Assembly: GCA_003166795.1 (NCBI GenBank)
Contig: PMUS01000055.1
Location: 20,662-62,551, forward strand
Source: Acidobacteriota bacterium
GTDB lineage: Bacteria > Acidobacteriota > Terriglobia > Acidiferrales > UBA7541
DNA length: 41,890 bases
Reading direction: 5' to 3'
The translations under genes and the position numbers were made by a program. Shown piece after piece: positions 7,009 through 26,600 of this stretch (its first letter is position 1; every line of letters starts with the position of its first letter). Under the pieces are notes generated by a model. The model was not told the origin of the DNA and did not search any database. It saw only the letters and a list, made by a program, of their open reading frames with translations.

Positions 7009-7860
7009 ATGAATTCGTTCAAACGCGTCACAGCCATACTGGTGTGTTTCATGATTTCTCCACTCGCCGCCCTCTGCGAACCGCAGGGCGGTGCGCAGCG
7101 CGCCGGGCAAATTGACGCCCTGATTCCGGCAGCCACGCGCAACGCCCAGACCGTCAAGGCGAAGGACGAAATTGACTGGAACGACTTGCTGAAGACCGCG
7201 CACAACGGCCGCGTCCGCGCGGGCCTGACGGACGGCTCGATTCTCAGCGTTGGCTCCGACAGCGAGCTCCGCGTCGTGCAGCACGACGCCACTTCCCAGC
7301 AGACGTCGCTCGAACTGGACTATGGCAAGGTTCGCAACCAGGTAACCAACATCACGAAGTCTGGCGGCAAATACGAGCTCAAGACTCCGAACGCCGTCAT
7401 CGGCGTGATCGGCACGGATTTCGTTACGCTCTACAAGAGCAACAGGACGACGGTGTGGTGCCTCAAAGGGCACGTCAGGGTGACGCCGCTGGGCAAGGTG
7501 GCCAAGAGTTCGGGACAGCAGAGTTCAACTGACAATACCGTGACGCTGGCGGAAGGCCAAATGGTGGTCATCACTTCCGTGATTCCCTCCGCGGGATTTC
7601 AGCCCACGAGTACGCCGCCGGATGAAGCGCAGACTATCTTGCTCTCAACCGACGTTCCTGACGGCAACCTCCCTCCGCCGGGTGATAATAAGTACGTGAA
7701 TCCGACACATGCCATGCGCACCCTGCTGGTCGGTGGCGCAATTGCGGTGGGATTGGGAGTCGGATTGGGCCTTGGCGCAGGACACGGCAGCGGTGGCGGC
7801 GTCGGCGTCACGCAAGGTTGCAGGCCTTCATCCAGTGTAAATTGCCCTACCGGGCCTTAA
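7009..7860 (+). CDS. Secreted FecR-domain protein with glycine-rich C-terminal helix
   Basis: This 283-residue protein has a signal peptide (about 1-23, ending near ALCEP). It is followed by a FecR-type beta-rich domain (about 40-185) with the pattern DGSILSVGSDSELRV and the conserved NAVIGVIGTDF. The end carries one hydrophobic glycine-rich helix (HAMRTLLVGG to LGLGAG, about 228-256) that could insert in a membrane, then a short Gly/Cys tail. It is probably periplasmic or cell-surface. It lies 79 bases upstream of a CHASE2 adenylate cyclase. From general knowledge, FecR-domain proteins are often found beside CHASE2 sensors, so it may present or modulate the signal for the cyclase; that role is inference. 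Confidence 0.85.
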   Translation: MNSFKRVTAILVCFMISPLAALCEPQGGAQRAGQIDALIPAATRNAQTVKAKDEIDWNDLLKTAHNGRVRAGLTDGSILSVGSDSELRVVQHDATSQQTSLELDYGKVRNQVTNITKSGGKYELKTPNAVIGVIGTDFVTLYKSNRTTVWCLKGHVRVTPLGKVAKSSGQQSSTDNTVTLAEGQMVVITSVIPSAGFQPTSTPPDEAQTILLSTDVPDGNLPPPGDNKYVNPTHAMRTLLVGGAIAVGLGVGLGLGAGHGSGGGVGVTQGCRPSSSVNCPTGP

Positions 7861-7939: not shown

Positions 7940-10306
7940 ATGAGCTCGAAGGACAAGCCCTCGTCACGTTGGTTGGCGTGGCTCCGCGTCTTCTCCGTTC
8001 CCCAGGTTGACCTCGCACTCGCCATAGTGGTCACTCTTGCCGGGCTGGGCGTGTTCGCCTACTCCGGATATCGCGCCGACACTCGCGCGGGCTTTGCGTT
8101 CCTCCAGAATATCGAGCAGCGTTCTCTCGACATGCGATTTGTCATGCGCGGCCAGCGCGCGCACGACGATCGCATCGTGATCGTCGGAATCGACGAAAGG
8201 ACGCTTCAGGAAATTGGCTCCTTTCCGCTGCCGCGGAAGACTTACGCGCTGCTGGTTGACCGGCTAAGCGCCGGCGGCGCCCGGGTGATCGCGTTTGACG
8301 CCACGTTTCCGACACCGGAGAGCAACTCTGCCGCGCCGGCGCTGGAACGCCTGCAAAGCGAGCTGGGCAGTTCCGCATCTCCCGCCGTCATCAGGAAAAT
8401 CAAAGATCTCGAGACGGGGAGCGACGAAGATGCGCTCTTTGCGGACTCCATGAAGCGAGCCGGCAACGTGGTGCTGGGGCACCTGTTCCTCGATCCGGAA
8501 GCCGCCAAGAACGCCGATCCGAAGCTGGAAGAAGACTATTTCAACATCGTCTGGGCCAAGAACTTTCCCCAGGTGTTCAAGGTGAAATCCAAAGACGGCC
8601 GCGATTTCGACTTGAGCAAGGCGTGGGTGGATAACGGCGGCCGCGTGGCTGCGGGCGCGGAAGCCAATATCAAGGAACTCGCCGAGGCGGCGGCATCGTT
8701 CGGATTTATTGATATCAATCCCGATCCCGACGGCACCTTGCGCCACGCGCTGCTGATCAAGCGCTATCGCGATCAGGATTTCTTCCCGTCGCTGGCCATG
8801 CAGATCGTTCGCGAGTACGAAAACATTCCCGACCAGGATATTGCGGCCTATATTGCGCAGGACGGCCTCGAGCGGATTCAATTCGGGCGTCACGTGCTTC
8901 GGCAATCGCGCGACGGCAGCGCGCTGATCAATTACACCGGCCCCTACGGCACCTACGCGCACTATTCCATGTGGGACGTGATGAGCGGCACGGTCCCGCC
9001 TGGCACATTCAAGGACAAAATCGTGCTCGTGGGCGCGACGGCCCTGGCGATCGGCGACATCCGCAACACGCCCTATCAGGGCGGCGAACCCTATATGGGA
9101 GTGGAGGTGCACGCCAATATCATTGACGATGTGCTGCACAGCGGCGAGAAGGGCCGCAGCTTCCTCACGCGGGGATTCGACGAAGAAATAATTGATCTGG
9201 GATTCATTCTGCTTTTCGGGATCGCTTTTGGAATCTTGTTCAGCCGCGTCCCGCCGCTCTATTCCACGATTTCGCTGTTGCTGGCGCTGGCGGGCTTCGC
9301 GTGGTTCGTCTATTTCAGCTTCGCGCAGCACGGGCGCTGGCTCAGTTTTGTGATTCCGGCGGGCACTCTGGTGGCCAACTACGCGGCGATCACCAGCTAT
9401 CGCATGATCTTCGAGGAGCGCGAAAAGCGAAAGATTCGCAAGAGCTTCGCGCAATATCTGTCTCCGGGCGTGATCGCCCTGATCGAAAAGGATCCGCAGA
9501 AATACATTCATCCCGGCGGAGAGATGAAGGATCTGACCGTGATGTTCAGCGACATCCGGGGCTTCACCACCATTTCCGAAGGGTTGACGCCGGACGAACT
9601 CGTGCGCCTTCTGAACGAATACCTGGGGGCCATGACCGACGTTGTTTTCGCGAGCTACGGCACGCTCGACAAATACATCGGCGACGCGATCATGGCGTTC
9701 TGGGGCTCGCCCTACCCGCAGACGGACCACGCGTTTCGTGGTTGTTACTGCGCGCTGGAAATGTCGCGCACGCTCTCAAAGCTCAACGCCAAATGGAAGC
9801 AGGAAGACCGGGCGCCCCTCGCCATCGGAATCGGCCTGAATACCGGCCCGGTGAACGTAGGGAACATGGGCTCGGAAAAGCGGCTGGCATGGACCGTCAT
9901 GGGCGACAACGTGAATCTTGCTTCGCGCCTGGAAGGAATCACAAAGCAATATCAGATTCAAATCGTAATCGGCGAAGGAACCTATCAGCAGGTCGGAAAC
10001 CACTTCGTTTGCCGCGAGCTGGACAAAATCAAAGTGAAGGGCAAAAACCACCCGGTGAATATCTACGAGCTGCTCGACGTGGCAGCGGAGAAATGGAAAT
10101 ACGAATCGCTGCTCACTCGATTCGACAGCGCCATGGCCGCTTATCGAAGCCAGAACTGGCGCGAGGCCTCGGCGCAATTTGGCCAGTTGCTCGGCGCCTT
10201 CCCGGAAGACGGCCCCACGCAAGTTTTCCTGCAGCGCGCGCTGGAGTACATGGAAACCGCGCCGGAAACGGATTGGGATGGCGTCTACGTAATGAAATCG
10301 AAATAG
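7940..10306 (+). CDS. Adenylate cyclase with CHASE2 sensor domain (class III)
   Basis: This 788-residue membrane protein has a first membrane helix at about 24-43 and a large CHASE2 domain outside the cytoplasmic membrane (about 45-400). Three helices follow (about 417-485), then a cytoplasmic class III cyclase domain (about 520-700) and a C-terminal extension. Catalytic residues are intact: metal ligands D538 (FSDIRGFTT) and D582 (KYIGDAIMAF), purine-specifying K578 and T652 (AWTVMGD), and transition-state N659 and R663 (NVNLASR). The Lys/Thr pair is the pattern of class IIIb enzymes that make cAMP. It should sense an extracytoplasmic signal through CHASE2. It ends 15 bases from the end of the convergent operon encoding a cyclic-nucleotide-binding Fe-S protein. 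Confidence 0.93.
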   Translation: MSSKDKPSSRWLAWLRVFSVPQVDLALAIVVTLAGLGVFAYSGYRADTRAGFAFLQNIEQRSLDMRFVMRGQRAHDDRIVIVGIDERTLQEIGSFPLPRKTYALLVDRLSAGGARVIAFDATFPTPESNSAAPALERLQSELGSSASPAVIRKIKDLETGSDEDALFADSMKRAGNVVLGHLFLDPEAAKNADPKLEEDYFNIVWAKNFPQVFKVKSKDGRDFDLSKAWVDNGGRVAAGAEANIKELAEAAASFGFIDINPDPDGTLRHALLIKRYRDQDFFPSLAMQIVREYENIPDQDIAAYIAQDGLERIQFGRHVLRQSRDGSALINYTGPYGTYAHYSMWDVMSGTVPPGTFKDKIVLVGATALAIGDIRNTPYQGGEPYMGVEVHANIIDDVLHSGEKGRSFLTRGFDEEIIDLGFILLFGIAFGILFSRVPPLYSTISLLLALAGFAWFVYFSFAQHGRWLSFVIPAGTLVANYAAITSYRMIFEEREKRKIRKSFAQYLSPGVIALIEKDPQKYIHPGGEMKDLTVMFSDIRGFTTISEGLTPDELVRLLNEYLGAMTDVVFASYGTLDKYIGDAIMAFWGSPYPQTDHAFRGCYCALEMSRTLSKLNAKWKQEDRAPLAIGIGLNTGPVNVGNMGSEKRLAWTVMGDNVNLASRLEGITKQYQIQIVIGEGTYQQVGNHFVCRELDKIKVKGKNHPVNIYELLDVAAEKWKYESLLTRFDSAMAAYRSQNWREASAQFGQLLGAFPEDGPTQVFLQRALEYMETAPETDWDGVYVMKSK

Positions 10307-10321
10307 TAAACCGCGCGCTCG

Positions 10322-11626
10322 TCAGTTTCCCGGAAGCAGACTCGAAAGCGTGAGCTTCCCTTTCACTTCTTTCGCTTTGGTCCAATCGTGGTACGTGTGG
10401 CACTCAAAGCAGCGGGATTCGGCGGCATCATTCCCGGCGTGGTGGCACTTTTCGCAAGTGGCGATGCCCGGCAGCAGGATGTCGGCGGTCTCATGGCTCG
10501 TGAGCGCGGCGTGGCATTCCGTGCATTTCACCATCTGGTGCCGGTCGTGGTTGAAATTGGCGTGGGGCAGCCAGCGCGGGGTGATGTTTGATTTCGCGAC
10601 TGCCGGGAGCGCGGCGCCGGCGGACAAGCTCAGCGCGTGGCATTGCTTGCACGTCTTGCCGTAAAGCAACTGCTCGGAATCCGCCACGCGTTCCGTGGCC
10701 CACTGTTGCGGCGTGAGGACGCGCACCGCTGCTGGCTGCGGCTTCTGCGGCAAACCGGGAACGGGAGTGGTGACGCGCACTTCGGCCGGATGCGCGGCGA
10801 TGTACTGTTGAAATTTCTGCGTGAGAAAAGCGTGAATCACTTCCGGCGTGTCGTGCGGAACGCTTTCCTTGAAGCGCTTGTCGAATTGCAGACCGTGGCA
10901 AGCGATGCAGTTCTTAGCGTACGTCGTGGGCGCCATATACGCGCGCGCCAGAACCATCGCCGCCCGATCGGACTTTTGTGGTGTAGGTCCGGATTTCTCC
11001 GAGGCGGGAATCGCAGCGGCTGGCGCGGCGCCGAACCGCCACGCGTCCGTGGAAGTCGGCGGGCGATGGCAATCGTCGCAATCGAGCTGCACCGGGCCGT
11101 TCGGGCCCGCGAGATTCCGCTTCATGTGCACGGCATGATTCAGCTTGATCGTGCCGGGATCAATGCTGCCGGGGCGGACCGCCGCAAATTCGGGATGGCC
11201 CGAGCCAAAATTTTCGATGTCGCGCACGAACTTCGTCGCGTCGCCGGTGGTCCGCAGGTCCGCATGGCACTGCGTGCACGCGGCGTCGGAAGTGGCGGCG
11301 AGCCGCGCATGTCCTCGATGCTCTTCGTGGCACGACGAGCATTTTGGCGTAAACGTCTGGTTGGCGTGGTGAATGGGGCCATCGTGGCACGCGAGGCAGG
11401 CTCGGTCGCTGGCCTTCGCGCTGAAAAACCCGGCCATCTCAAAATGGCAGGCGTCGCATTTCGTGGCGAGGACGGCGTGGGCGGGCGACACCTGTCCGCC
11501 GCTGTACACTCGCTGGTTGCCGGTGACCCCATGCCAGACGAGCCACAGCACAGCCAGAAGCGGCACGGACAGCGAGAGCCAGAAACGCCAGCGCCGAAAC
11601 GCATGCGGGCGCTTGAAATAATTCAT
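10322..11626 (-). CDS. Membrane-anchored decahaem cytochrome c
   Basis: This 434-residue protein has one N-terminal membrane helix (about 14-32) and a periplasmic part with ten CXXCH haem-binding motifs, at residues 57, 77, 96, 117, 183, 240, 326, 368, 391 and 406. Five haems lie in the first 190 residues and five after 240, with a Pro/Ala-rich stretch between. I chose the ATG at 11626 (MNYFKRP) because it starts just before the positively charged edge of the helix. A frame 39 residues longer starts at 11743 but would overlap the upstream gene and adds a charged tail without sense. It is the last gene of the operon and the likely electron exit from the membrane cytochrome b. Confidence 0.9.
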   Translation of the reverse strand: MNYFKRPHAFRRWRFWLSLSVPLLAVLWLVWHGVTGNQRVYSGGQVSPAHAVLATKCDACHFEMAGFFSAKASDRACLACHDGPIHHANQTFTPKCSSCHEEHRGHARLAATSDAACTQCHADLRTTGDATKFVRDIENFGSGHPEFAAVRPGSIDPGTIKLNHAVHMKRNLAGPNGPVQLDCDDCHRPPTSTDAWRFGAAPAAAIPASEKSGPTPQKSDRAAMVLARAYMAPTTYAKNCIACHGLQFDKRFKESVPHDTPEVIHAFLTQKFQQYIAAHPAEVRVTTPVPGLPQKPQPAAVRVLTPQQWATERVADSEQLLYGKTCKQCHALSLSAGAALPAVAKSNITPRWLPHANFNHDRHQMVKCTECHAALTSHETADILLPGIATCEKCHHAGNDAAESRCFECHTYHDWTKAKEVKGKLTLSSLLPGN

Positions 11627-11709
11627 GTCAATGCGCTGGGCTCGTTTTTTTGTTGCCCGTTCTCCGTCCGGCACGAATCCTCGCTTCTCTGTTTCTTGGC
11701 TTCTTCGCC

Positions 11710-12537
11710 TCAGTAACGCAACGCCACGATCGCGTGCACGCAACCAAGCAACAGCAACGCAAACGACAACGGGATGTGCAACATCAACCAGCCATGCAGC
11801 CAGTGGTGCAAAAGCGATTGACGCCGCAGCTGGCGCTCCTCCTCGCAGATCTGCTCGAGCCGCCTGGTGGCTTCCTGCACTTCAGCGGGCAGCAGCATGC
11901 GGAGCCCCTCGAACGTGCTGTGCGCTCGCTCGGGATTCGAGAGCAACTGGTGCCGCGCGCCATGGCTTTGCAGGAAAGGGCGCATCTCGCGCTGATAAAA
12001 ACTGGCCAGCGGCGCGGATCCTTCTTCGCCTGACGCAGTTGATTCCGCGCCGGCGACCACGCCGTCCGCATCCGCGACGAACTGAGCGCGGACATGGTCA
12101 ATCTGCTCGAAGATGGTTTCCGATGGGACTTGAACGGTCATCACAGCGGGCAGGTAGTGCTGCAGCAGCGCGCCAAAAATTCCGCTCGCGACCACAATGA
12201 TGAGCAGGACCATCAATACGCTTGTGAGCGGGCCGCCGAACCGAAACCCGGCGTGAAAAAAAATGATCGGCAGGCTCAAGAGCCCGAGCCACAGATGGCC
12301 GCGCATCCAGGTCTGCGCGCGGCCGAGCCGCCAGACCGGAAATTTCTTGCGCCCGGCCAGCAGCCCCGCAAAAACCATGAAAACGGAGCCGACGATTCCA
12401 AACGTGAGCCCGATGGCGCTGCCGCCGCTGGGACCCGACGGCGCATGCAGGGCGTACGGGATGTAAACGGCCGTCGCTACCCCCAAAATAATGAGCGAGG
12501 CCGCCAGCCATTTTCTGTGTGTGTGGTCTATGCGCAC
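11710..12537 (-). CDS. Membrane cytochrome b-like subunit (predicted two haems b)
   Basis: This 275-residue protein has about five membrane helices (about 9-30, 41-62, 78-98, 103-126, 243-272) and one soluble loop (about 130-240, charged, partly coiled-coil-like). Helix 3 has H81 and H95, and the last helix has H254 and H268. Both pairs are spaced by 13 residues, the spacing that lets one pair of helices hold two stacked haems b. That is the basis of the call; I do not recognise a named family. It starts with GTG at 12537, 33 bases after the Fe-S/cNMP gene, and is followed by the decahaem cytochrome after 83 bases. It probably carries electrons between the Fe-S protein, quinone and the periplasmic cytochrome. 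Confidence 0.75.
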   Translation of the reverse strand: MRIDHTHRKWLAASLIILGVATAVYIPYALHAPSGPSGGSAIGLTFGIVGSVFMVFAGLLAGRKKFPVWRLGRAQTWMRGHLWLGLLSLPIIFFHAGFRFGGPLTSVLMVLLIIVVASGIFGALLQHYLPAVMTVQVPSETIFEQIDHVRAQFVADADGVVAGAESTASGEEGSAPLASFYQREMRPFLQSHGARHQLLSNPERAHSTFEGLRMLLPAEVQEATRRLEQICEEERQLRRQSLLHHWLHGWLMLHIPLSFALLLLGCVHAIVALRY

Positions 12538-12570
12538 GTTTCCGGAATTATCGGACGAAACGTTCCTTTA

Positions 12571-14742
12571 CTAAGGCTTCTGCGTCATGCCCGGCTCCTG
12601 CCCCAGCAAACCCGCAAAGAACTTGCGGGGATCAACGCGGTGGGCCGCATCGTGCGGGCACGCGTACACGCAACTCGGCTCAGCGTGGTCGGTGCACAAA
12701 TCGCACGATGTGGCTTTCTGCTTGACCATCGCAACCTTTCGTCCGGGCTGCGCCGGGTCATCCGCCATCACGTTGAACGGATGCAGATTGATATTGCCGT
12801 ACGGGCAATTTTCGGCGCATAGCCCGCAGCCGATGCACCAATCCTCGATGATCACTTCCAGCGAGTTGCGCCTGCGGATCGAGCCCACCGGGCAGCCGAC
12901 CATGCACAGCGGGTCGAGGCATTGACGGCAGGAAGTCGCAACCAGATAGTGGTCGAACCTCAGCCCCTCGCGGACCAGCCGCGTGATGCCGTCATGCGAA
13001 TCGGCGCAGGCGCGCACGCATGCGTCGCAGCGCGTGCAACTGTTCAGATCGAGCAGCAGAAGGCTTTGCGCTTCCATTAAGCCCTGCGCGAGAAAATTGT
13101 CGAGCGGCACGCTTTGCACCACGGAAAGCCGCTCGCGATTCATCTGCGCGCGGTCCTGTTCCACGGTCTCGAGCTTCCGCCGCACAACGGGGAATTCGCC
13201 CATCATGCGATTGAAGTCCGCGGCGCCGATGCGAACGAGCTCCACGTGGTCGAGCGCCGTGCAGGTGGCCGTGCGAATATCACCGGCGAGCAATCCGGTT
13301 TCTCCGAAATAATCGCCGCGCGAAAGATAGGCCAGCACCATGTCTCCGCCGGGATGCGCTTGCGACACTTTTACGAAACCGATGCGGACCAGATAAAAGC
13401 TGTCCGCGGGGTCGCCCTGCCGGCAAATCACCTGGCCGGGCGAGTAGCGCACAAGTTCCACGCTCTCGCGCAGGCTGCTGATGAATTCGTCCGTCAACTC
13501 GGCGAACACCGGGACGGAGCGCAGGTGGCTATCGAGAGCGCGCTGGCGGTACGATTTGTCGAGCTGGGCGCGGAAATTCTTATTGCGCTGCATGATGTCG
13601 AGCACGTTGCGCAGCATCTCCAGCATCGTGCAATCGGTTTCCGCGCGGACGGTGGCCGAGCGCGGATAGAGGCTCATGCAGGTCATCTCGCCAAACAGGT
13701 CTCCCGGCCCCAGCTCCGCCACGGGATTGTCGTAGCTCAAATCCATGGGAGCATCAATGGGGATCCAGCGCTGGTCGGCCTCTTCTTCGCGCCGGTCCTG
13801 CTGACGCTGCGCCAATTTGCTCGAGAGCTTGCCGATGAATTTCTTGATTCCGCCCTGCGTTTTCACGTGCGCCATGGGCGTCGAGATGGAAACCTGCGCT
13901 TTGCCTTCCAGCAGGTAGAACGCAGTGGATCCGTATTCGCCCTCGCGGCAAATCGTTTCCCCGGCTTTGAAATGCCGCTTCACCACGGCGCCGCGGTTCA
14001 AGCTCAGAAAAGTTCCGGAGACGCCCTTGAAAACAGGAAGATGCTGCAGCTCTTCCGGCGAAACGGATTCGAATGCAGGGCCCGCGCCCAGCGCGGTTCG
14101 CGTCACGCCCTTGTTGGTGAGCGCTCCCGTGGGGCAGGAAACCATGCATTCCCCGCAGGAAACGCAGGACGATTCGCCCATGGGTTCGTTGTCATCGAAG
14201 GCGATTCCCGCATTCGTGCCCTTTCCCATGCGGCCCAGCACGAAGTTCTCGCGAATCTCGCTGCATCCGCGAATGCAGCGATCGCACAGGATGCACGCAT
14301 CGAAATCCACCGCGATGCTCATCGAGGAATCGTCCTTCGCGCGGCCGGTGGTGCGTCGCGCGAATCGCGGATGCTGCACATTTTCCTGTCGCGCCAGGGT
14401 TTCGAGTTCGCAATCTCCGGAATGCTGCTGCCGAGCGCACGGCGAGGGGTGGTCGGACATCAACATCTCGACGAGCGTGCGCCGCGCGCGCAGCACTTTC
14501 TCCGATGCCGTGTTTACGACCATGCCGGGCTCAGCCGGACGCACGCACGACGCCGTAAACACCCGCGCGCCAACGTCCACCACGCATAGGCGGCAGACGC
14601 CCACGGGCGTTTCGTTCTGCTGATGGCACAGCGTGGGAATGGCGATGTCGTTCATTCGCGCGGCGTCGAACACGGTCGTTCCCGCCGGCACGGCGACTTT
14701 CTTCCCGTCAATCGTCAGTTCGATGAGCCCGGCCGCGCTCAT
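12571..14742 (-). CDS. NuoG/HoxU-like Fe-S protein with two cyclic-nucleotide-binding domains and a four-cluster ferredoxin domain
   Basis: This 723-residue cytoplasmic protein starts at ATG 14742, overlapping the NuoEF stop (ATGA). Parts in order: a [2Fe-2S] ferredoxin domain (C39, C50, C53, C66); a NuoG-like His/Cys cluster motif (H98, C102, C111) in which the usual second Cys is Gln105; two [4Fe-4S] motifs (C150-C160 and C193-C203, ending CPTGAL); a cNMP-binding domain (about 236-395) with phosphate cassette F350-G-E and R361-S-A, carrying a 55-residue charged insertion (about 288-343); a second cNMP domain (about 410-525) with F479-G-E and R490-T-A; and a DmsB/NrfC-like four-cluster domain (cysteines 569-579, 605-617, 636-646, 680-695). 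It should pass electrons from the NADH-oxidising subunit towards cytochrome b. The two intact cAMP-type pockets suggest allosteric gating, which is inference. Confidence 0.9.
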   Translation of the reverse strand: MSAAGLIELTIDGKKVAVPAGTTVFDAARMNDIAIPTLCHQQNETPVGVCRLCVVDVGARVFTASCVRPAEPGMVVNTASEKVLRARRTLVEMLMSDHPSPCARQQHSGDCELETLARQENVQHPRFARRTTGRAKDDSSMSIAVDFDACILCDRCIRGCSEIRENFVLGRMGKGTNAGIAFDDNEPMGESSCVSCGECMVSCPTGALTNKGVTRTALGAGPAFESVSPEELQHLPVFKGVSGTFLSLNRGAVVKRHFKAGETICREGEYGSTAFYLLEGKAQVSISTPMAHVKTQGGIKKFIGKLSSKLAQRQQDRREEEADQRWIPIDAPMDLSYDNPVAELGPGDLFGEMTCMSLYPRSATVRAETDCTMLEMLRNVLDIMQRNKNFRAQLDKSYRQRALDSHLRSVPVFAELTDEFISSLRESVELVRYSPGQVICRQGDPADSFYLVRIGFVKVSQAHPGGDMVLAYLSRGDYFGETGLLAGDIRTATCTALDHVELVRIGAADFNRMMGEFPVVRRKLETVEQDRAQMNRERLSVVQSVPLDNFLAQGLMEAQSLLLLDLNSCTRCDACVRACADSHDGITRLVREGLRFDHYLVATSCRQCLDPLCMVGCPVGSIRRRNSLEVIIEDWCIGCGLCAENCPYGNINLHPFNVMADDPAQPGRKVAMVKQKATSCDLCTDHAEPSCVYACPHDAAHRVDPRKFFAGLLGQEPGMTQKP

Positions 14743-16490
14743 GCATGCCTCGAAGTTGCGTGACCATCTACCACGGAGGGCGCGGCGGCAGACGCGCCTG
14801 AAAAGCAAATTCCGGAAGGGCATTCACGGCGCGAAACGTGCGCGTCCACTTCGTCCCGGAAATGTTTCAAGACGGAAGCGATGGGCGCAGGCACCACCTG
14901 ACCGAGGCCGCAGATGGACGTCAGTCGCAGCGCCTCGGAAAGCTCGTCAATCAGCGCCAGATCGGAGGCGGAGCCCTGGCCCTGGGTCCATCCGGTGAGC
15001 AAATCAACCATTTTCTGCGATCCGACCCGGCACGGAACGCATTTCCCGCACGATTCGTTGCGGAAGAACTTTGTCGCATTCAATGCCATGTCCAGCATGC
15101 AGGTGTTTTCGTCGCATACGACGACAGCGCCCGAGCCGAGCATCGAGCCGGCGTCGGCGAGCGCCTTGAAATCGAGACGCACATCCGCCAGCGATGCGGG
15201 CAAGTAGCCGGAAGACGGACCCGAGGGCGCAAAGCCTTTCAGTTTTTTCCCGCCGGGGATGCCGCCGCCGTGTTTGAAGATCAAATCAGAGAGCGTGGTG
15301 CCCATGGGAACTTCATAGACGCCGGGCTTGGCAACGTCCCCACTGATGCCGACGAATTTAAGTCCGGCGCAGCCGCCGACGCCCTGCGATTTGTACCATT
15401 CGACGCCGCGCACGAGTATCGGCGGGACGTTGGCGAAAGTCTCGACGTTGTTTATGACGGTCGGCTTGTTCCAGAGGCCCTGCTGCACGGGAAACGGAGG
15501 TTTGTTGCGCGGCTCGGCGCGCTTGCCTTCGATGGCTTCGAGCAGGGCGCTCTCTTCGCCGCAGATGTAACCGCCGGGACTGACGAACAGCTCCAATTCG
15601 AATTCCAGCTCGGTGCCGAGGACGCTCGGGCCGATGAGGCGTTCGCGCTTGCAGCGCAGGATTTCGTCGTGGAGGATTTTTTCCTGCTCGTCGTATTCGT
15701 GGCGGATGTAAAGGATGCCTTTTTTCGCGCCGGTCAGAAGGCCGGCGAGAATCATGCCTTCGATGACGAGGTGGGGGATGTTGGTGAGTATGAAGCGGTC
15801 CTTGATCGTGCCCGGCTCGCTCTCGTCCGCGTTGCAGACGATATATTTTTCTGAGCCCGGCTGCTGGCGGACGAGCTGCCATTTCGATTCGGTGGGAAAG
15901 CCGGCGCCGCCGAGGCCGCGAAGTCCGGACGCCTTCAATAGCTCGAAAGCGGAATTCCAATCGCGCGATTGCGCGAGGCGGCGAACGACAGCGTAACGCT
16001 CATCCGGCGCGGAATATGGATCGGACGCGCAGGGGATTCCGCGGCGCGAGGCAGCGGGCTCAGGCTGCGAACCCTGCGTGACGACGTCGCGAATCATTTC
16101 CTCGATCTGCGATTCGCTGAGGCGCGTGTAGATGCGGTCGTTGACGGCGACGGCGGGCGCCTGGTCGCAGCGGCCGAGGCAGGAAATGCCGCGGATGGTG
16201 ACGTCCGCGCCGGCAAGATTCTGAAGGCGCTCTTCCAGGCGCGCGCGAAGGCCGTCGGCGCCGCGCAGATGGCACGACATATCCTGGCAGACGCAGACGT
16301 CCGCTTTCGGTGGCGGCGTTAGGCGAAAGTGCGGATAAAAACTGGCGACTCCGTGCAGACGATACAGGGGAACGTCAATCTGTTTCGCCAAATCCTTCAA
16401 TTCTTCGGCAGGCAGGTAACCGAACCGGTGTTGGATCTCCCGCAACCCGTCGAAGATCAACGTGACTCTCCCACACAGAGGGTCGTTCAT
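14739..16490 (-). CDS. NuoE-NuoF fusion, NADH-oxidising FMN/Fe-S subunit
   Basis: This 583-residue protein has a NuoE-like thioredoxin-fold domain (about 10-135; [2Fe-2S] ligands C68, C73, C104, C108) fused to a NuoF-like domain (about 165-545). The second part has the FMN/NADH glycine motif GLGGAGFPT (192-200), NADESEPGT (220-228), GYICGEESALL (307-317) and the [4Fe-4S] ligands C481, C484, C487 and C527. It should oxidise NADH (or reduce NAD+) at FMN. No other complex I subunits and no hydrogenase subunits lie nearby, so it is neither a standard Nuo nor an obvious Hox enzyme. The ATG at 16490 is the first in frame; AGGA touches it directly, and a weak TTG start at 16622 would add 44 residues unlike the family. 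Its stop overlaps the next gene by 4 bases. Confidence 0.92.
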   Translation of the reverse strand: MNDPLCGRVTLIFDGLREIQHRFGYLPAEELKDLAKQIDVPLYRLHGVASFYPHFRLTPPPKADVCVCQDMSCHLRGADGLRARLEERLQNLAGADVTIRGISCLGRCDQAPAVAVNDRIYTRLSESQIEEMIRDVVTQGSQPEPAASRRGIPCASDPYSAPDERYAVVRRLAQSRDWNSAFELLKASGLRGLGGAGFPTESKWQLVRQQPGSEKYIVCNADESEPGTIKDRFILTNIPHLVIEGMILAGLLTGAKKGILYIRHEYDEQEKILHDEILRCKRERLIGPSVLGTELEFELELFVSPGGYICGEESALLEAIEGKRAEPRNKPPFPVQQGLWNKPTVINNVETFANVPPILVRGVEWYKSQGVGGCAGLKFVGISGDVAKPGVYEVPMGTTLSDLIFKHGGGIPGGKKLKGFAPSGPSSGYLPASLADVRLDFKALADAGSMLGSGAVVVCDENTCMLDMALNATKFFRNESCGKCVPCRVGSQKMVDLLTGWTQGQGSASDLALIDELSEALRLTSICGLGQVVPAPIASVLKHFRDEVDAHVSRRECPSGICFSGASAAAPSVVDGHATSRHA

Positions 16491-16685
16491 TCCTGTGGCG
16501 GAATCAATCTCGGTGATGAATCTCGGTGACCCATGAGGATATAGCAAATCCGATTCGGCAAGTCCACCGCGCGCTCCGGAAGTGAAAATCGCGGCCGCCC
16601 CGGCAGTTACGGTTAGTACCAAAAGCGCCGAGTTCGCGCCTTTACGCTTCCGGTTTTGCGGTAGAGTACTCCTGCCAAACAGGAA
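16491..16685. promoter_or_regulatory. Divergent promoter region between nuoEF-like operon and cytochrome c554-like gene
   Basis: This 195-base region must drive both directions. On the plus strand TGCGGTAGAGT (16657-16667) is identical to an 11-mer before the alcohol dehydrogenase gene (2380-2390). With TAGAGT as a -10 element it would start a transcript about 12 bases before the ATG, just leaving room for the AGGA ribosome site. No clear operator palindrome is seen. Confidence 0.4.
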
Positions 16686-18053
16686 ATGAACACGAAGCTC
16701 GCCACCAAGTCCCTCCGCCTGTTTCTGCTGCCGGCTGCGGCATTTCTGCTAGTCGCCTTTTTTCCATTCACGAGTTCAGCGCAAACCCGCACCTCCGCCT
16801 ACGATGGCGCGGGCAAATACACCGGGCCGGGATCATGCGCTTCAACCAGTTGCCACGGAAGTATTACGCCGCGCACGGAAAACGACGTTCTGCAAAATGA
16901 GTACAGCACATGGATCGTCAAGGACAAGCACGCGCAATCCTACAAAGCTCTGACCGGAAACATTGGCGAACGGATGGCGGGCATCCTGGGCCTGGGTAAG
17001 GCCGAGACGGCGCCCCGATGCCTGACGTGCCACGCTCTGAATCCTCCCCCGGCTGAGCGTTCGCGCACATTTGACGTGAGCGAGGGCGTGAGCTGCGAAA
17101 GTTGCCACGGCCCTGCGTCCGGTTGGCTGGGCCCGCACACGGAACGCGATTGGACGCATCAAAAGTCCGTCGAGCTTGGCATGGTAGATGAGCGCAGTCT
17201 GACTAAACGCACGGAGAAATGCCTGAGTTGCCATCTCGGCAGCGATGAGAAATACGTGGATCACGAAATGATCGCCGCCGGCCATCCCGATCTCTTCTTT
17301 GAGCTGGATTCGTTCTCCGCGGTGATGCCGCGGCACTGGAAAGAACCCGGCGAACCGGGTGCAGCCGGGCAGAGCGATCCCTGGTATGACGTTCGAGAGC
17401 TCACGACAGGCCAGGCGGTCCAACTGCGCGAATCCATGCTCCGGCTGGCATCGCGCTCGAAGGAGAAAACCTGGCCGGAATATTCCGAAATGCAGTGCTA
17501 CGCGTGCCACCACAGCCTGACTCCTCCGGAACAGAGCTGGCGGCAGGCGCGCGGCTATGGCGACCGGCGCCCCGGCGACCCTCCGTGGAATGCTTCCCGC
17601 TACGCCGTGTTCCGAGACGTGGTTCATCAGCTGGATGGAGAAGACGCGGGACAGCTAGACAACCAGATTTCGCAGCTCACGAAGCTGATGAGCCAGTTGA
17701 ATCCCGACCGCGACGCTGTGGCGAGTGCCGCGACAAATTCCGCGCAGCTGGCCGACGCGCTGGTGGCGAAGATCAACGCCGCGGCTTACGATCCGGCGTC
17801 CACATTGCGGCTGCTGCAGAAAATTTCGGCGGACGCGGAAGACATTTCCGGCCAGGGCGAGCAATCCGCGGCGCAGGCAGCCATGGCGATCCAGTCTCTT
17901 TTCGTCGCATACGACCGCGATGCGAAGTTGCAGAATTCCGCCGAGCTTCGCGCCGCGATCAGTGCTCTATTCCAGCAGCTCGAAAATCCATCGGCTTACG
18001 ATCCGGCGCGATTCGCGCGTCAGATGCAGCAGGTAAACGCCCTCCTGAGGTGA
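16686..18053 (+). CDS. Periplasmic pentahaem cytochrome c (c554-like)
   Basis: This 455-residue protein has a signal peptide (about 1-32, cleavage near SSAQ) and five haem-binding motifs: an unusual CX4CH (C51 to H57, CASTSCH) followed by CXXCH at 112, 137, 179 and 271. The layout of the N-terminal 280 residues resembles the cytochrome c554 family of multihaem electron carriers. The C-terminal 150 residues are helical, Ala/Gln-rich and have no haem sites. An AGGA site precedes the ATG. The SthA start lies 3 bases after its stop, so the two are probably co-expressed. It is divergent from the NuoEF operon and could exchange electrons with the decahaem cytochrome; that is inference. Confidence 0.87.
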   Translation: MNTKLATKSLRLFLLPAAAFLLVAFFPFTSSAQTRTSAYDGAGKYTGPGSCASTSCHGSITPRTENDVLQNEYSTWIVKDKHAQSYKALTGNIGERMAGILGLGKAETAPRCLTCHALNPPPAERSRTFDVSEGVSCESCHGPASGWLGPHTERDWTHQKSVELGMVDERSLTKRTEKCLSCHLGSDEKYVDHEMIAAGHPDLFFELDSFSAVMPRHWKEPGEPGAAGQSDPWYDVRELTTGQAVQLRESMLRLASRSKEKTWPEYSEMQCYACHHSLTPPEQSWRQARGYGDRRPGDPPWNASRYAVFRDVVHQLDGEDAGQLDNQISQLTKLMSQLNPDRDAVASAATNSAQLADALVAKINAAAYDPASTLRLLQKISADAEDISGQGEQSAAQAAMAIQSLFVAYDRDAKLQNSAELRAAISALFQQLENPSAYDPARFARQMQQVNALLR

Positions 18054-21213: not shown

Positions 21214-21435
21214 GCGATCGCAGCTTATTCGTACCATAGCTGGCAGCTGTTCTCAATGCGCTCTGGCTCAAATCGCGCCGTGAAAACTGGCGTGAGCGCG
21301 CTGTGTGTCGTCAATCGCACGCAAAACCGCGCGGCAATTCATCAAAAACACTTGCTCATCCGGAAACAACCGTGTTAGCTAGACCGAGCACGTCAACAAA
21401 ATAGGAAGTTGCTGACGCATTCCAGGACACAGAGG

Positions 21436-23592
21436 ATGCTGGCTGCATCCAACGCCCTTTCCAGACTCGTTCCGCTGTTCCTACTCGCCGTTTTGCCGCT
21501 TTCCGCCGCCGTGAAATTCACCTCGGGCATTGCTTCGCAACAACAGCTTCCCGGAAAAGCGCCTCAAAAGACGGGTGCACTCGAGGGTGTGGTTCGTAAT
21601 TCGAACGGCCAGCCGGTTGGCGGCGCCAGCGTCGCGATCCGAAACGTCGCCACGGGCGAGGTTCGCAAGACGACCACTACTGCGGAAGGCGTGTTCCGCT
21701 TGATTGACTTGCCGCCGGGGAAATATGAATTGAATGTCGCAGGCAATGGTTACGAAACATTGACGGAAGCGGACCTGACGGTCACGGCCGGCCAGGTTGT
21801 GGTGCATGACGTCAAGCTCGTGGCACTTCCTGTGACTGCGCCGCCTGCGTCCAGCCTTCCGCAGCTTCCGGCGACGACTGCCCCGACGACTGCGACCGAA
21901 ACTTCCGCTCCGGGATACTCCGGAGCAAAACAGAGTCCGGACCTGGAGTCATCCAGCCAGACTCCGCCCGCGCCGGCAACATTTCCGCCTGACGGCGAGG
22001 TTTTTCAAGCGGAGCCGAATCGCTGGCGCGTCACCATGCCCGATTGGGATCGCTACGGAACCGGTGGCGAGCATCCCTACGTAAAGGGAAGCAAGTGGGA
22101 TCCATTTGACCGGAACAAATTGAAAGGTGATGTGCCGATTTTCGGCCAGCAAACCTTTTTCAACTTCACGGCGCTCAGCGACACACTCATAGATGGCCGG
22201 CGCCTGCCGGTTCCGAGCGGCATCAGCACGGCGAGTCCCGGGACCAGCGATTTCTTCGGAAAGGGCGAGCAACTCTTCCTCGATCAGCTGTTTCTTTTCT
22301 CCTTCGACCTGTTTCATGGCGACGCAGCCTTTCGTCCCGTGGACTGGCGGATTCGAGTGACTCCGGTGATCAGCCTGAATTATCTCGACGTGCAAGAGCT
22401 CGGGATCGTAAACGTTGACGTGCGCGACGGCACCACGCGACTGGATTCCCATCTCGGCTTCCAGGAACTCTTTGGAGAGGTAAAACTCCATGACCTGAGC
22501 TCGAATTACGATTTTGTTTCCGTGCGCGCGGGCATCCAGGAGTTCAACTCCGATTTCAGGGGCTTTCTTTTCGTTGACGAGCAGCCTGGCGTGCGTTTCT
22601 TCGGCAACCTCGATTCAAACCGCTGGCAATACAATCTGGCCTATTTCAACTTGCTCGAGAAGAACACCAACAGCGGCCTGAACACATTCGCCCGAAGAAA
22701 GCAGCAGGTGATCATCGCCAATGTTTACAAGCAGGATTTCCTGTTCCAGGGCTATACGGCGCAGTTCAGCGTGGACTACAACGACGACGCCCCCAGCATT
22801 CATTACGATGACAATGGTTTTCTGGTGCGCCCGTCTCCCATCGGCGTGGTGATCTCGAACAACGAGATCAAGCCACACGCCATTCATGTCGGGTACCTGG
22901 GGTGGACGGGCGATGGGCACATCGGGCGCGTGAACCTGACACACGCCTTTTATCAGGCACTTGGTACCGACAGTTTCAATCCGTTGGCCGGACGCCCCGT
23001 TACCATCAACGCGCAAATGGCCGCGCTCGAGCTCTCCGTTGATAAGGATTGGATCCGCTTCAAGGGCTCGGCCTTCTACGCTTCCGGTTCCGCGAATCCC
23101 GCGAGCGGACACGCGCGCGGTTTTGACGCCATCGAAGACTTCCCCGAATTCGCGGGCGGAATTTTCAGCCTGTGGAATCGCGAGGGCATTCGGCTGACCG
23201 GCGCCGGAGTGAACCTGACGTCGCCCGACAGCTTGCTGCCCAGTCTCCGCTCAGACAAAGACGAAGGGCAAGCCAACTTCGTCAATCCCGGCATTTTTCT
23301 CGCGAACCTGGGAACGGATTTCGATCTCACACCGAAGCTGCGCGGCTTCGTCAACGTCAACTATCTGCGATTCGAAGACACCGAGCCGCTCGAACTTCTA
23401 CTGTTCCAGGCTCCCATTCATCATACGATCGGTGTGGACTCCAGCCTCGGCGTGCGATACCGCCCGCCGCTGACGGAAAACATTTCGATCACCGCCGGGG
23501 CCGCTGCGCTCGTGCCCGGACAGGGCTTGCGCGATATTTACACGGGCAAAATGATGTTCAGTGTCTTTACCAACGTAAAGTTTCAGTTTTAG
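21436..23592 (+). CDS. Outer-membrane beta-barrel protein with N-terminal carboxypeptidase-regulatory-like domain
   Basis: This 718-residue protein starts at ATG 21436, with AGGA 8 bases upstream; a TTG start 27 bases earlier is less likely. A signal peptide (about 1-27) is followed by a CnaB/CarboxypepD_reg-like beta-sandwich (about 40-125: GALEGVVRNSNGQPVGGA to LPPGKYELNVAGNGYE) and a Pro/Thr-rich linker (about 130-180). The rest is a long region of alternating aromatic and polar residues ending in FTNVKFQF, the C-terminal Phe pattern of outer-membrane barrels. It lacks TonB plug motifs. It lies 24 bases upstream of a 10-haem cytochrome. A sheath for electron passage through the outer membrane is possible, but no homology to MtrB can be claimed. 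Confidence 0.78.
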   Translation: MLAASNALSRLVPLFLLAVLPLSAAVKFTSGIASQQQLPGKAPQKTGALEGVVRNSNGQPVGGASVAIRNVATGEVRKTTTTAEGVFRLIDLPPGKYELNVAGNGYETLTEADLTVTAGQVVVHDVKLVALPVTAPPASSLPQLPATTAPTTATETSAPGYSGAKQSPDLESSSQTPPAPATFPPDGEVFQAEPNRWRVTMPDWDRYGTGGEHPYVKGSKWDPFDRNKLKGDVPIFGQQTFFNFTALSDTLIDGRRLPVPSGISTASPGTSDFFGKGEQLFLDQLFLFSFDLFHGDAAFRPVDWRIRVTPVISLNYLDVQELGIVNVDVRDGTTRLDSHLGFQELFGEVKLHDLSSNYDFVSVRAGIQEFNSDFRGFLFVDEQPGVRFFGNLDSNRWQYNLAYFNLLEKNTNSGLNTFARRKQQVIIANVYKQDFLFQGYTAQFSVDYNDDAPSIHYDDNGFLVRPSPIGVVISNNEIKPHAIHVGYLGWTGDGHIGRVNLTHAFYQALGTDSFNPLAGRPVTINAQMAALELSVDKDWIRFKGSAFYASGSANPASGHARGFDAIEDFPEFAGGIFSLWNREGIRLTGAGVNLTSPDSLLPSLRSDKDEGQANFVNPGIFLANLGTDFDLTPKLRGFVNVNYLRFEDTEPLELLLFQAPIHHTIGVDSSLGVRYRPPLTENISITAGAAALVPGQGLRDIYTGKMMFSVFTNVKFQF

Positions 23593-23616
23593 CGGCGCGC
23601 GAGGAACTACCGGAAA

Positions 23617-26600
23617 TTGTTGAAGCGAGATTCATTCACGGCGCTGGAGAGACGACGGGGCAAAGATAGTCGCCCGGGCGCGGCGCGGCGCTACTTCGCC
23701 ATTCTCGCGCTGCTCGTGATCCTATCGTTTGCGCTGGAGCACGGATTGCCGGCGGATGCGCGGCCGCAAGCGCAGCAGTCACCGCAGCCGTCGCAGCCCA
23801 GCCTGATCACGCAGACGCAGGCCGACGCAGATGCGAAGAGCACAGGGTGCGTCACCTGCCACGTCAGCGTTGATGAGCCGACCATGCACCCCACTCGCAC
23901 CGTGCGCCTGGGCTGCACGGACTGCCACGGCGGCGATGCCACGGCCGGCATCTCGCCCGGCACGCCCAAGGATTCCGCGGCCTACGAACAGGCGAAGTTA
24001 AAAGCGCATCCCCAGCCTCGCGATCCCATCTTCGCCCGCGGTTCGGCCAACGCGCAGCGCGCCTACACGGCGTGGCTGCGCGAGAGTTATGAGTACGTCC
24101 GCTTCGCCAATCCCGGCGACCTTCGCGTCGCCCCGCAAACTTGCGGCACAGCGGGGTGCCACCAGGCGGAAGTCCGCAACGTGAGCACCAGCATGATGAC
24201 TCACGGCGGGATGCTCTGGGGTGCGGCGCTTTATAACAACGGATCGTTTCCGCTGAAGAACGCGCGCTTCGGCGAAAGCTACTCGGCCGACGGCCTGCCG
24301 CAGGCAATGCACACCGTCCCGCCGCCATCACCTGAGGAAACGCGGACGAAAGGCGTGGTGCCCGAATTGACGCCTCTCGAGCGCTGGGAGATTTCGCAGC
24401 CGGGGAATGTGCTGCGCGTATTCGAGCGCGGCGGCGCAAAAAAAGGTGAAATCGGCAATCCCAACACCGAGGGAGAATCCGGCCGCCCCGACGACCAACT
24501 CGGGGAACGCGGATTCGGCACCCTGCTGCGCACCGATCCGGTGTTCCTTGGCTTGCAGAAGACGCGCCTGCTCGACCCGATGCTCTCGCTTCCGGGCACG
24601 AACGATCAGCCGGGCGATTATCGCGGCAGCGGTTGCACGGCGTGCCACGTGATCTACGCCAACGATCGCTCGCCCGAGCATTCCGGTCCGTATGCGTCGT
24701 TTGGCCATCTCGGCGAGAGCGCGTCCGCCGATACCACGATTGCAAAGGGCGAATCCGGCCATCCTATTCGGCACACGTTCACGCGCTCGATTCCCTCCAG
24801 CCAATGCATGGTCTGCCACATCCACCCGGGCACGAATATGGAGACGACGTATTTCGGCTACACCTGGTGGGACAACGAAGCGGACGGCGAATCCATGTAT
24901 CCCGCGCAGCAGAGGAATCCGACCGCGGACGAACGATATGAAGTGGCACAGCGAAATCCGGAAGGGGCCGCGCCCCGCGGCTTGTGGTCGGACCCGAAAT
25001 TCCTCGAGCAATTGGGCGACGCGAAATTCAATGCGCAGCTGAAGCAAAGTCAGTTCGCCGATTTCCATAGCCACGGCTGGGTCTTCCGCGCTGTTTACAA
25101 GCGCGATCGAAAGGGCGATCTGCTCGACGCTGATAGCAAAATCGTTTCCGCCGACGACCCGAACAAATTCGACAAGGCTGTTCACCTGAAGGACATCCAC
25201 CTCGAGAAAGGAATGCAGTGCGTGGACTGCCACTTCCAGCAGGACGTTCACGGCAATGGAAAGCTGTACGCCGAGCCTCGCGCCGCGATCGAACTCGACT
25301 GCACCGATTGCCACGGCACGGTCGAGAAACGCGCCACGCTGATTACCTCCGGACCCGCAGCACCCGCCGGTGGCACGCACCTCGATGCGTTTCGCACTCC
25401 CTGGAACAGCCGGCGATTCGAATGGCGCGACGGCAAGCTCTTCCAGCGCTCCATGGTCGAGCCCGATCAGGAATGGGAAGTGGTGCAGACGCTGGACACC
25501 ATCACGCCCGGTAACGCTCACTACAGCGAAAAATCGAGGTGGGCCAAGACCGTCCGGCTCGATGGCAAGACGTGGGGCGCGCTCCCGGCGGATGAATCGC
25601 AGCTGGCTCACGCGAACAGCCGCATGACGTGCTACGCCTGCCACACTTCCTGGACGCCTAATTGCTTCGGCTGCCATCTTTCGATGACCGCGAATCAGCG
25701 CATGCCGATGCTCCACAATGAAGGCCTGACCACCCGCAACTACACGTCCTACAACTTCCAGGTGCTGCGTGACGACGGCTTCATGCTGGCAATTGACGGC
25801 ACGGTCACGGGCCATCGCGTGGCGCCAGCGCGCTCTTCCTGCGCTATCGTGGTCAGCTCGCAAAACCAGAATCGCGAATGGCTTTATTACATGCAGCAGA
25901 CGGTTTCGGCGGAAGGGCTCGCCGGGACCGCGTTCAGCACATTTGTGCCGCATACGGTGCGGTCGAAAGAAACGAAGTCCTGCGACGATTGCCACATTTC
26001 GCAGCGCAACGACAACAACGCATGGATGGCGCAAGTGCTTCTGCAAGGCACCAACCTGTTGAATTTCATGGGGCGCTATATCTACGTCGCGGACGGCGCG
26101 AAGGGTTTCGATGCCGTGGCCGTCGCGGAGCACGATGAGCCGCCCGCGATCATCGGCAGCTACCTTCAGCGGCTCGCCTACCCGGACAATTACCGCCAGC
26201 ACGTCGCGCGCGGCCGCGAGCTTCAAGAGGCCTACCATCACCCTGGAAACGTGCTCGACGTGCAGCTTCGCGGCGAATATCTCTACGCCGCACTCGGCAA
26301 GGGCGGGTTCCGTGTGTACGACGTCGCCAATATAGACAACAAGGGCTTTTCCGAACGCCAGGTCACCGCCCCCGTATCTCCACTGGGGCAGCGCCTCTAC
26401 GCGCATACGAAATACGCGACGGCCGTCGCCAGCCCCTCGACGCTCGCGATTGATCCCGCGCGGGCGCGAAACCCGGAGAACGAAGAGCAGGCGATCCACC
26501 CGATGTACGCGTTTCTCTACGTTGCCGACAAATACGAAGGCCTGGTGGTCGTTGGAGACTCGAATCCCAACAGCAAGTCTCCTGGCGTCAGCACGCTGCT

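Follow-up and report, generated by a model that had tools for sequence, protein, structure and literature searches.

A candidate cAMP-controlled electron path from NADH towards the outer membrane in Acidobacteriota, with two cyclic-nucleotide-binding domains inside its iron-sulphur subunit

Can a cell signal act directly on a respiratory chain? To our knowledge, the cyclic-nucleotide control of bacterial respiration known so far is exerted via transcription. A locus of an Acidobacteriota bacterium (GCA_003166795.1, contig PMUS01000055.1) suggests that a signal may switch respiration directly, because the central Fe-S protein of its operon has two built-in sensor domains. All positions are those of the whole stretch of DNA that was analysed, 41,890 nucleotides long and called the window here. 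The operon (10322-16622, minus strand) encodes a NuoEF fusion, an Fe-S protein with cyclic-nucleotide-binding domains (CNBDs), a cytochrome b and a decahaem cytochrome c. A class III cyclase gene converges on it, tail-to-tail, across a gap of 15 bp. An earlier note had read the locus as a cAMP-gated electron-transfer complex next to an adenylate cyclase. Open reading frames and Pfam domain matches placed every gene where that note had put it, and its observation is upheld as a whole, with corrections to the His-Cys3 motif, the operon of the cyclase and the extent of the unit.

The NuoE-NuoF fusion (14739..16622, minus strand), an NADH/FMN diaphorase, matched 2Fe-2S_thioredx (3.1e-30), Complex1_51K (6.7e-41), SLBB and NADH_4Fe-4S as well as nuoF_fam (4.5e-132), in agreement with the fusion described before. 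Its true start is likely near 16493 (M44). The Fe-S/cNMP protein (12571..14823, minus strand) is an ORF of 750 amino acids, likely starting at M28 (14742) and overlapping the NuoEF stop. It was aligned with 60 relatives, and the 61 rows comprise 54 full-length proteins and 7 of a short form, in which the HoxU part and NuoEF are missing while the CNBDs and the four-cluster part are present. The HoxU/HydA/NuoG-like part (residues 34-240; 14104..14724, minus strand) was recognised by Foldseek matches to HydA/NuoG. The four Cys of its [2Fe-2S] site (C66, C77, C80 and C93) and the ligands of two [4Fe-4S] sites (C177/180/183/187 and C220/223/226/230) are present in 54/54 full-length rows. To this extent the NuoG/HoxU-like motifs reported earlier hold. 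The His-Cys3 site does not: H-x3-C-x2-C-x5-C has become H-x3-C-x2-[RQEH]-x5-C, and the middle Cys is gone in nearly all full-length relatives (absent in all 40 distinct motifs listed from 54 rows). The Pfam match to NADH-G_4Fe-4S_3 is 26.6 bits against a cut-off of 27. The NuoG-like cluster is one ligand short, which counts against the reading as a cAMP-gated complex. Respiratory complex I was rejected as an identity; the Fe-S protein is without the NuoG C-terminal part, and no membrane-arm family was found in the 17 window proteins scanned. A NuoG-like gene was found elsewhere in the same genome.

At the other end of the protein lies a DmsB/HydN-like part (residues 588-738; 12610..13062, minus strand). 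In agreement with the four-cluster domain of the earlier note, it has 16 Cys for four [4Fe-4S] clusters; 15 of them are kept in 59-61 of 61 rows and C710 in 57. The matches to HydN (4.6e-15) and DmsB (5.3e-10) are both below the curated cut-offs. This part of the predicted model is of low confidence, so inter-cluster distances are not readable from it. The next gene encodes a membrane cytochrome b (11710..12537, minus strand) with four hydrophobic segments. Its two His pairs (H81/H95/H254/H268) are invariant in 54/54 rows, as expected for a b561-like di-haem protein and for the two-haem cytochrome b predicted before. The AlphaFold model has a pLDDT of 91.8. Family matches are weak (DUF4405 in 14/54 members, Ni_hydr_CYTB in 9/54), and among the solved structures searched with Foldseek the best b561 match had an E value of 1.4, with none at or below 0.001. 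The last gene (10322..11743, minus strand) encodes a membrane-anchored cytochrome c with one N-terminal hydrophobic segment, likely starting at M40 (11626). Its 10 CxxCH motifs agree with the decahaem assignment. The operon very probably encodes an electron-transfer complex.

The two tandem CNBDs sit between the HoxU/NuoG-like and four-cluster parts (Pfam cNMP_binding, 4.4e-40). CNBD 1 spans about residues 250-430 (13534..14076, minus strand; cassette FGEMTCMSLYPRSATV) and shows in the alignment a loop insertion around residues 315-365. CNBD 2 spans about residues 434-556 (13156..13524, minus strand; cassette FGETGLLAGDIRTATC). Both have the PF00027 phosphate-binding cassette with its E and R. 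The first cassette, FGE-x7-PRSAT, is invariant in 61/61 rows, including those from Rokubacteria and Planctomycetota. The second, FGE-x8-RTAT, is near-invariant, with R in 57/61 and E in 60/61 rows. The claim of two intact cassettes is thereby borne out, and the degenerate second cassette in 5/61 rows counts against gating by cAMP. By sequence, the tandem resembles PKA/PKG regulatory parts (PDB 3of1, 9.2e-26); Foldseek gave the same fold class, at a high rmsd (11-22 Å) from which orientation is not readable. Judged from these residues, the protein probably binds a cyclic nucleotide.

The gene order NuoEF, Fe-S/cNMP protein, cytochrome b and decahaem cytochrome c is kept in 70/89 loci; the remaining 19 include several short forms, cut contigs or rearrangements. 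By the phylum labels of the sequence records, the relatives are mainly from Acidobacteriota, with some from Rokubacteria and Planctomycetota. Granulicella aggregans M8UP14, a named strain, also carries the operon, and a cyclase lies 5.8 kb from it. The functional unit seems to stretch past the region first described, to 16686-18053 and 21409-27414, and three plus-strand genes appear to be members of it. The first (16686..18053) encodes a divergent, secreted cytochrome c554-like protein (4 CxxCH and 1 CxxxxCH; Pfam Cytochrome_C554, 4.7e-11), and such a gene lies near the Fe-S gene on the opposite strand in 68/89 loci. The second (21409..23592) encodes a predicted outer-membrane barrel with a CarboxypepD_reg N-domain and a C-terminal KFQF, with homologues in 32/89 loci. 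The third (23617..27414) encodes a large multihaem cytochrome with LVIVD repeats (9 CxxCH and 1 CxxxxCH; Pfam LVIVD, 4.1e-21), with homologues in 40/89 loci. Neither of the last two had a Pfam match to the MtrB/porin or OmcA/MtrC families.

The cyclase gene (7940..10306, plus strand) encodes a CHASE2-class III adenylate cyclase (CHASE2 7.1e-60, Guanylate_cyc 5.4e-26). Its D538, K578, D582, T652, N659 and R663 are present and recur in a relative of 44% identity; we take them to be the two metal Asp (D538/D582), the Lys/Thr pair for adenine (K578/T652) and the Asn/Arg pair (N659/R663) of class III cyclases. The earlier description of a tail-to-tail cyclase with all catalytic residues agrees with this. 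A FecR-domain gene (7009..7860, plus strand; Pfam FecR 7.1e-18) lies 79 bp upstream as its partner, and the two probably form their own operon. The note had tied cyclase and complex by adjacency. The link goes beyond this, because class III cyclases co-occur with the Fe-S gene, the present one is the sole PF00211 match in its own genome, and the neighbourhood of the operon in relatives has cyclases of different subfamilies. Among 95 genomes of the order, PF00211 was found in 39/42 with the Fe-S gene, absent from three, and in 18/53 without it (Fisher 3e-9); 0/20000 within-genus shuffles reached 39. In genomes at least 90% complete the counts are 23/24 and 8/28. A control NiFe hydrogenase showed no link in the same 95 genomes (14/42 versus 18/53, p=1). 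In the phylum sample, 10/10 Fe-S-positive genomes had a cyclase, compared with 253/396 overall, and 1/17 Fe-S-bearing genomes outside the order was without a PF00211 match. Within about 10 kb, a cyclase occurs in 16 of the 49 loci flanked by 8 kb or more on each side, where 0.5-1.6 were expected. All 18 cyclase matches in the 89 loci can be sorted into five subfamilies, or six if one weak match is counted, of at most 51% mutual identity, and one genome has its only PF00211 match 5.3 kb off, from another subfamily.

What did not hold is adjacency as a general rule. The note had named as a refutation that homologous operons usually have no cyclase, be it close by or elsewhere in the genome; the co-occurrence contradicts this, whereas the counts of neighbouring cyclases partly bear it out. 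Of the 42 genomes of the order with the Fe-S gene, just 6 have a cyclase within 12 kb of it, and these belong to a single genus; short contigs are common among the MAGs sampled. No cyclase was found in six planctomycete loci that extend about 9-10 kb to either side. In addition, the LVIVD cytochrome occurs in 39/42 Fe-S-positive genomes of the order, a link as tight as that of the cyclase, so what the cyclase follows might be the entire conduit. On balance, a class III cyclase is rather likely the cAMP source for the complex.

The cAMP could instead work only via CRP-type transcription regulators that control expression of the module; the CNBDs in the Fe-S protein would then be structural elements or remnants. 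Shewanella reportedly controls metal respiration by cAMP through CRP. In the present genome four proteins were read as CRP/FNR regulators, three of them with GE-x8-R, and such regulators co-vary with the cyclase, occurring in cyclase-positive genomes. GE-x8-R was found in 7/23 non-Fe-S CNBD domains of five Fe-S-positive genomes and in the cassette of 0/18 CNBD domains of five Fe-S-negative ones, where one has GE-x7-R. However, a first cassette invariant across phyla is hardly expected of remnants, and one genome of 99% completeness with a single cyclase has, among its CNBD proteins above the cut-off, no GE-x8-R-type cassette outside the Fe-S protein. CRP-like palindromes were not above chance in the window (7 against a shuffle mean of 10.8) and none was found from 16400 to 16760, though these regulators may recognise another site. 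This explanation is possible but unlikely. It is doubtful, too, that the CNBDs serve a purely non-regulatory purpose, binding a nucleotide or other small molecule for assembly or docking, such as keeping the diaphorase attached to the membrane part. The short form ties the CNBDs and the four-cluster part to the membrane part, as such a role would have it. Yet it has no diaphorase to dock and retains the cassettes in the five that were aligned, and structural domains would not need to co-occur with a cyclase.

We return to direct control by cAMP. NuoEF, with FMN and Fe-S centres, would accept electrons from NADH and pass them to the Fe-S/cNMP protein, which would hand them on to cytochrome b. 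The two haems of the latter would carry them over the inner membrane to the anchored decahaem cytochrome c, and from there they may reach the predicted barrel and LVIVD multihaem conduit via the c554-like cytochrome. The whole path would be a quinone-independent electron exit. The reverse flow, in which haems of the outer membrane and periplasm would supply electrons for the reduction of NAD+ by NuoEF, is improbable: sequence does not fix the direction and diaphorase modules are reversible, but passing electrons from periplasmic c haems on to NAD+ normally runs uphill and no ion pump is seen in the operon. The two PKA-like CNBDs are placed between the two relays, that of the diaphorase and the four-cluster one. 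The cAMP supplied by a class III cyclase, at this locus the neighbouring FecR/CHASE2 enzyme, would most likely bind them and may alter how far apart the relays stand or how they dock, turning electron flow on or off. Gating of the complex by a cyclic nucleotide seems somewhat probable. The electron-transfer complex and the intact CNBDs of the original interpretation remain, its cyclase link is backed by co-occurrence though not by general adjacency, and the whole reading, a cAMP-controlled conduit from NADH to the periplasm and outer membrane, has slightly better than an even chance. Since both CNBDs lie inside the electron-carrying subunit, we propose that export could be switched in seconds without transcription; that cAMP from an envelope-sensing cyclase gates the path from the diaphorase to outer-membrane haems directly and allosterically is, on the strength of the sequences, an even call.

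If true, this would be a direct switch from signal to electron flow, with two intact cAMP-type receptor domains in an electron-carrying subunit that is conserved in Acidobacteriota, Rokubacteria and Planctomycetota and, in the order examined, inherited together with a class III cyclase. It would also open a route of extracellular respiration to soil bacteria that are abundant but poorly understood, and assign a role to their FecR/CHASE2 cyclases.

Parts of this plan are found in known systems. The diaphorases of HoxFU, HydABC and NAD-dependent formate dehydrogenases share NuoEF and the [2Fe-2S]/[4Fe-4S] relay, whose best matches are HydA1 and formate dehydrogenase alpha. In contrast, this operon shows no partner of the hydrogenase, formate or complex I kind, the middle Cys of His-Cys3 is lost, and the relay shares its polypeptide with CNBDs and a four-cluster ferredoxin part. 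The Hmc, Tmc and Qrc complexes of sulphate reducers combine a cytoplasmic four-cluster Fe-S protein, a membrane subunit and a periplasmic multihaem cytochrome c. The same three-part plan is seen here, but with an NADH module, another cytochrome b family, CNBDs within the Fe-S subunit and no more than a weak hint of QrcA in the decahaem protein (0.0013). MtrCAB-type conduits likewise have a barrel beside a large multihaem cytochrome and a periplasmic cytochrome near, whereas here the barrel is a predicted one, the large cytochrome has LVIVD repeats and both are without a Pfam match to those families. PKA and PKG regulatory parts also have two tandem CNBDs with intact cassettes; here they are fused to electron carriers rather than controlling a kinase, and the first has a loop insertion. 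Finally, thioredoxin reductases with a CNBD are fusions of such a domain to a redox enzyme, and in the present case the partner is a membrane electron-transfer complex instead.

The four minus-strand genes between 16622 and 10322 are co-directional, with overlaps or short gaps between them, and encode in this order a NuoE-NuoF fusion, the 750-codon Fe-S/cNMP protein (12571-14823), a 275-codon membrane protein (11710-12537) and a decahaem cytochrome c (10322-11743). The start of the Fe-S gene computed from the sequence is likely the ATG at 14742, which overlaps the NuoEF stop. On the plus strand, the gene of the CHASE2 class III cyclase P0005 (7940-10306) ends 15 bp from the stop of the decahaem gene, and a FecR gene lies 79 bp ahead of it. 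The operon and its tail-to-tail cyclase, as described in the earlier note, were thus borne out. A terminator scan of 10200-10420, which covers the convergent gap, found none. A histidine kinase and response regulator pair is predicted upstream of the FecR and cyclase genes at 5182-6842(+). The operon is not a fragment of complex I, since the membrane-arm families are absent among the 17 window proteins scanned and the C-terminal part of NuoG is absent. The plasmid collection held no relative at E 1e-60.

Two alignments were used, A2 with 61 sequences (that of the window and 60 of 89 loci) and A3 with 54 sequences (that of the window and 53 of 84 loci). Residues 34-240 of the Fe-S/cNMP protein match HoxU, HydA and NuoG. 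The NuoG/HoxU-like Fe-S motifs reported previously stood for the [2Fe-2S] and the two later [4Fe-4S] sites, which are complete in 54/54 full-length rows, and failed at the NuoG-like His-Cys3 site (residues 125-138), where the middle Cys is gone family-wide in every motif printed. The cluster at this motif may be altered or absent. Both cyclic-nucleotide-binding domains (CNBDs) carry the expected cassettes. Cassette 1, FGE-x7-PRSAT, is invariant in 61/61 rows; cassette 2 has its Glu in 60/61 and its Arg in 57/61, five rows being degenerate. The C-terminal part contains 16 Cys, which fits four [4Fe-4S] clusters and agrees with the proposed DmsB-like domain. In 7/61 rows (L022-L026, L104 and L105), the protein has a short form that lacks the HoxU part and comes without NuoEF, and cytochrome b and decahaem c still follow it wherever the contig allows. 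Therefore, the short Fe-S protein, cytochrome b and decahaem c form the core. Modelled with AlphaFold, the Fe-S protein reaches a pLDDT of 77 and its four-cluster part falls into blocks between 41 and 81, so inter-cluster distances are unreadable from the model.

The 275-residue membrane protein has no Pfam match of its own, and its relatives show weak matches to DUF4405 (14/54) and Ni_hydr_CYTB (9/54). Its four His are invariant in 54/54 sequences, as expected of the two-haem cytochrome b predicted before. The model is confident (pLDDT 91.8), and a fold search with it against the PDB gave no significant match. The decahaem protein has a single hydrophobic segment, which is N-terminal. The order NuoEF, Fe-S protein, cytochrome b and decahaem c was found in 70 of the 89 loci, and the last three genes without a preceding NuoEF in six more; in four planctomycete loci the two cytochromes precede NuoEF and the Fe-S gene, and loci beyond these orders are cut or incomplete.

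The c554-like gene (16686-18053(+)) is present on the opposite strand in 68/89 loci. Many loci are short, and the LVIVD multihaem cytochrome (23617-27414(+)) was seen in 40/89 and the barrel (21409-23592(+)) in 32/89. In the window's order, by a hand count, the LVIVD cytochrome occurs in 39/42 Fe-S-positive and 4/53 Fe-S-negative genomes (G409, G443, G444 and G456). From the shared loci and the co-occurrence, we infer a single NADH-to-outer-membrane route made of the operon, the c554-like protein, the barrel and the LVIVD cytochrome, with a putative outer-membrane step. An LVIVD repeat is named in a paper on Methanosarcina (PMC6315138). Immediately 3' of the c554-like gene lies a pyridine-nucleotide-disulphide flavoprotein (18057-19463(+)), possibly another NAD(P)H-linked partner. 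An HbpS-like-repeat protein (PF03928; 19612-21237(-)) sits between the two redox gene groups, and its homologues also adjoin the operon in L018 and L021.

At least 575 stretches encode a match to alignment A1 at tblastn E 1e-3 or better, a threshold that does not demand the full architecture, so that some may differ. The best 80 of these were retained and the set therefore leans to close relatives. By database label, Acidobacteriota make up most of them, joined by Rokubacteria, Methylomirabilota, Planctomycetota and a few single MAGs labelled otherwise; the named strains among them are Granulicella aggregans M8UP14 and Tautonia sociabilis GM2012. The Fe-S gene was found in 10/396 genomes of the phylum sample and in 42/95 genomes of the order.

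The earlier note had linked the cyclase to the operon from adjacency, and the link now has support beyond it. In presence tables transcribed by hand, PF00211, the class III cyclase family, occurs in 39/42 genomes of the order with the Fe-S gene vs 18/53 without it (n = 95; Fisher 3e-9). None of 20000 within-genus shuffles reached 39 (mean 26.0, maximum 34), and thus the link holds inside genera. Among genomes at least 90% complete, the counts are 23/24 vs 8/28. NiFe hydrogenase, the sole control family run, showed no link (14/42 vs 18/53); this count takes the 32 genomes whose PF00374 match is about 1e-15 or stronger, while 35 pass the cut-off. P0005-like CHASE2 cyclases occur in 38/42 Fe-S-positive vs 9/53 Fe-S-negative genomes. 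In the window's own genome (93% complete), the single PF00211 match is the adjacent cyclase gene. In the phylum sample, a cyclase is present in 10/10 Fe-S-positive genomes vs 253/396 overall. Among 17 genomes reached through loci and labelled outside the order, 16 have a cyclase, which adds little because such genomes commonly carry cyclases (up to 32 each). PF00211 is missing from 3/42 Fe-S-positive genomes of the order, and G504, Fe-S-positive and outside the order, has no match at all.

Conservation of the cyclase beside the operon was confirmed in part. Among the 49 loci flanked on each side by 8 kb or more (40/89 with short flanks being omitted), 16 show a cyclase no more than about 10 kb away, where 0.5 to 1.6 were expected. 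At 80% Fe-S identity, 10/26 clusters contain a nearby cyclase, and at 75%, 5/21; L067, a weak match (27.5 bits), is included, and its removal gives 15/49 loci and 9/26 clusters. In the order, a cyclase lies within 12 kb in no more than 6/42 positive genomes (0.48 expected), all of the window's genus; in seven others it shares the contig at a distance of 37-79 kb. In one genus (G420, G422, G423, G424, G427 and G432), the distance is 64-79 kb. Six planctomycete loci (L093, L095, L098, L099, L102 and L106) show no cyclase in flanks of about 9-10 kb on both sides. The 18 cyclase matches across the 89 loci form five subfamilies, or six with the weak match, that of L057 being assigned from its full-length score alone; between subfamilies the catalytic domains are at most 51% identical. 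G359, a genome from another family, has a single PF00211 match, which sits 5.3 kb off the operon and is of a different subfamily. Therefore, several cyclase types seem to have come near the operon separately. A chance neighbour is ruled out by the co-occurrence, the sole cyclase of the genome and the repeated proximity. By co-occurrence, a cyclase that follows the Fe-S gene looks the same as one that follows the conduit as a unit, because the LVIVD cytochrome shows the same pattern.

cAMP may also act on transcription, since CRP-type regulators with a GE-x8-R cassette are present in cyclase-positive genomes. Read on whole domains, this cassette was found in 7/23 non-Fe-S CNBDs of five cyclase-positive genomes and in none of 18 CNBDs of five Fe-S-negative genomes, one of these CNBDs having GE-x7-R; the Fe-S-negative set was compared against G000, G472, G422, G438 and G488. 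FGEGCLAGQ-type CRP regulators are also absent from the Fe-S-negative G429, G430, G442, G471 and G473. It is as if the whole cAMP circuit were gained or lost together with the respiratory module. A CRP-site search of the whole window gave 7 matches vs 10.8 expected. G438 (99% complete) has one intact cyclase, and the Fe-S protein is its sole CNBD over the cut-off with a GE-x8-R-type cassette, and this speaks for the Fe-S protein as a genuine target; under the cut-off, the examination covered L178 in G438 only, one match in G488 being omitted.

In the favoured reading, electrons would pass from NADH through NuoEF to the HoxU-like relay, over the CNBD hinge to the four-cluster relay, and then through cytochrome b, decahaem c and the c554-like protein, reaching the outer membrane last. 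With the CNBDs placed between two relays of a single chain, their binding of cAMP could alter the distance or docking of the relays, and either opening or closing of the path would be compatible. The lack of this first relay in the short form suggests instead that the CNBDs may govern how the four-cluster part docks to cytochrome b or its donor.

The literature search listings describe neither this operon's complex nor an electron-transfer complex directly controlled by built-in CNBDs, which may still be published; among the papers listed by one search, none contains the term cyclic nucleotide-binding. Every module of the complex is already known. The orientation of the paired CNBDs is not close to that of the PKA and PKG regulatory tandems, whereas the pair is alike to them in sequence and fold class.
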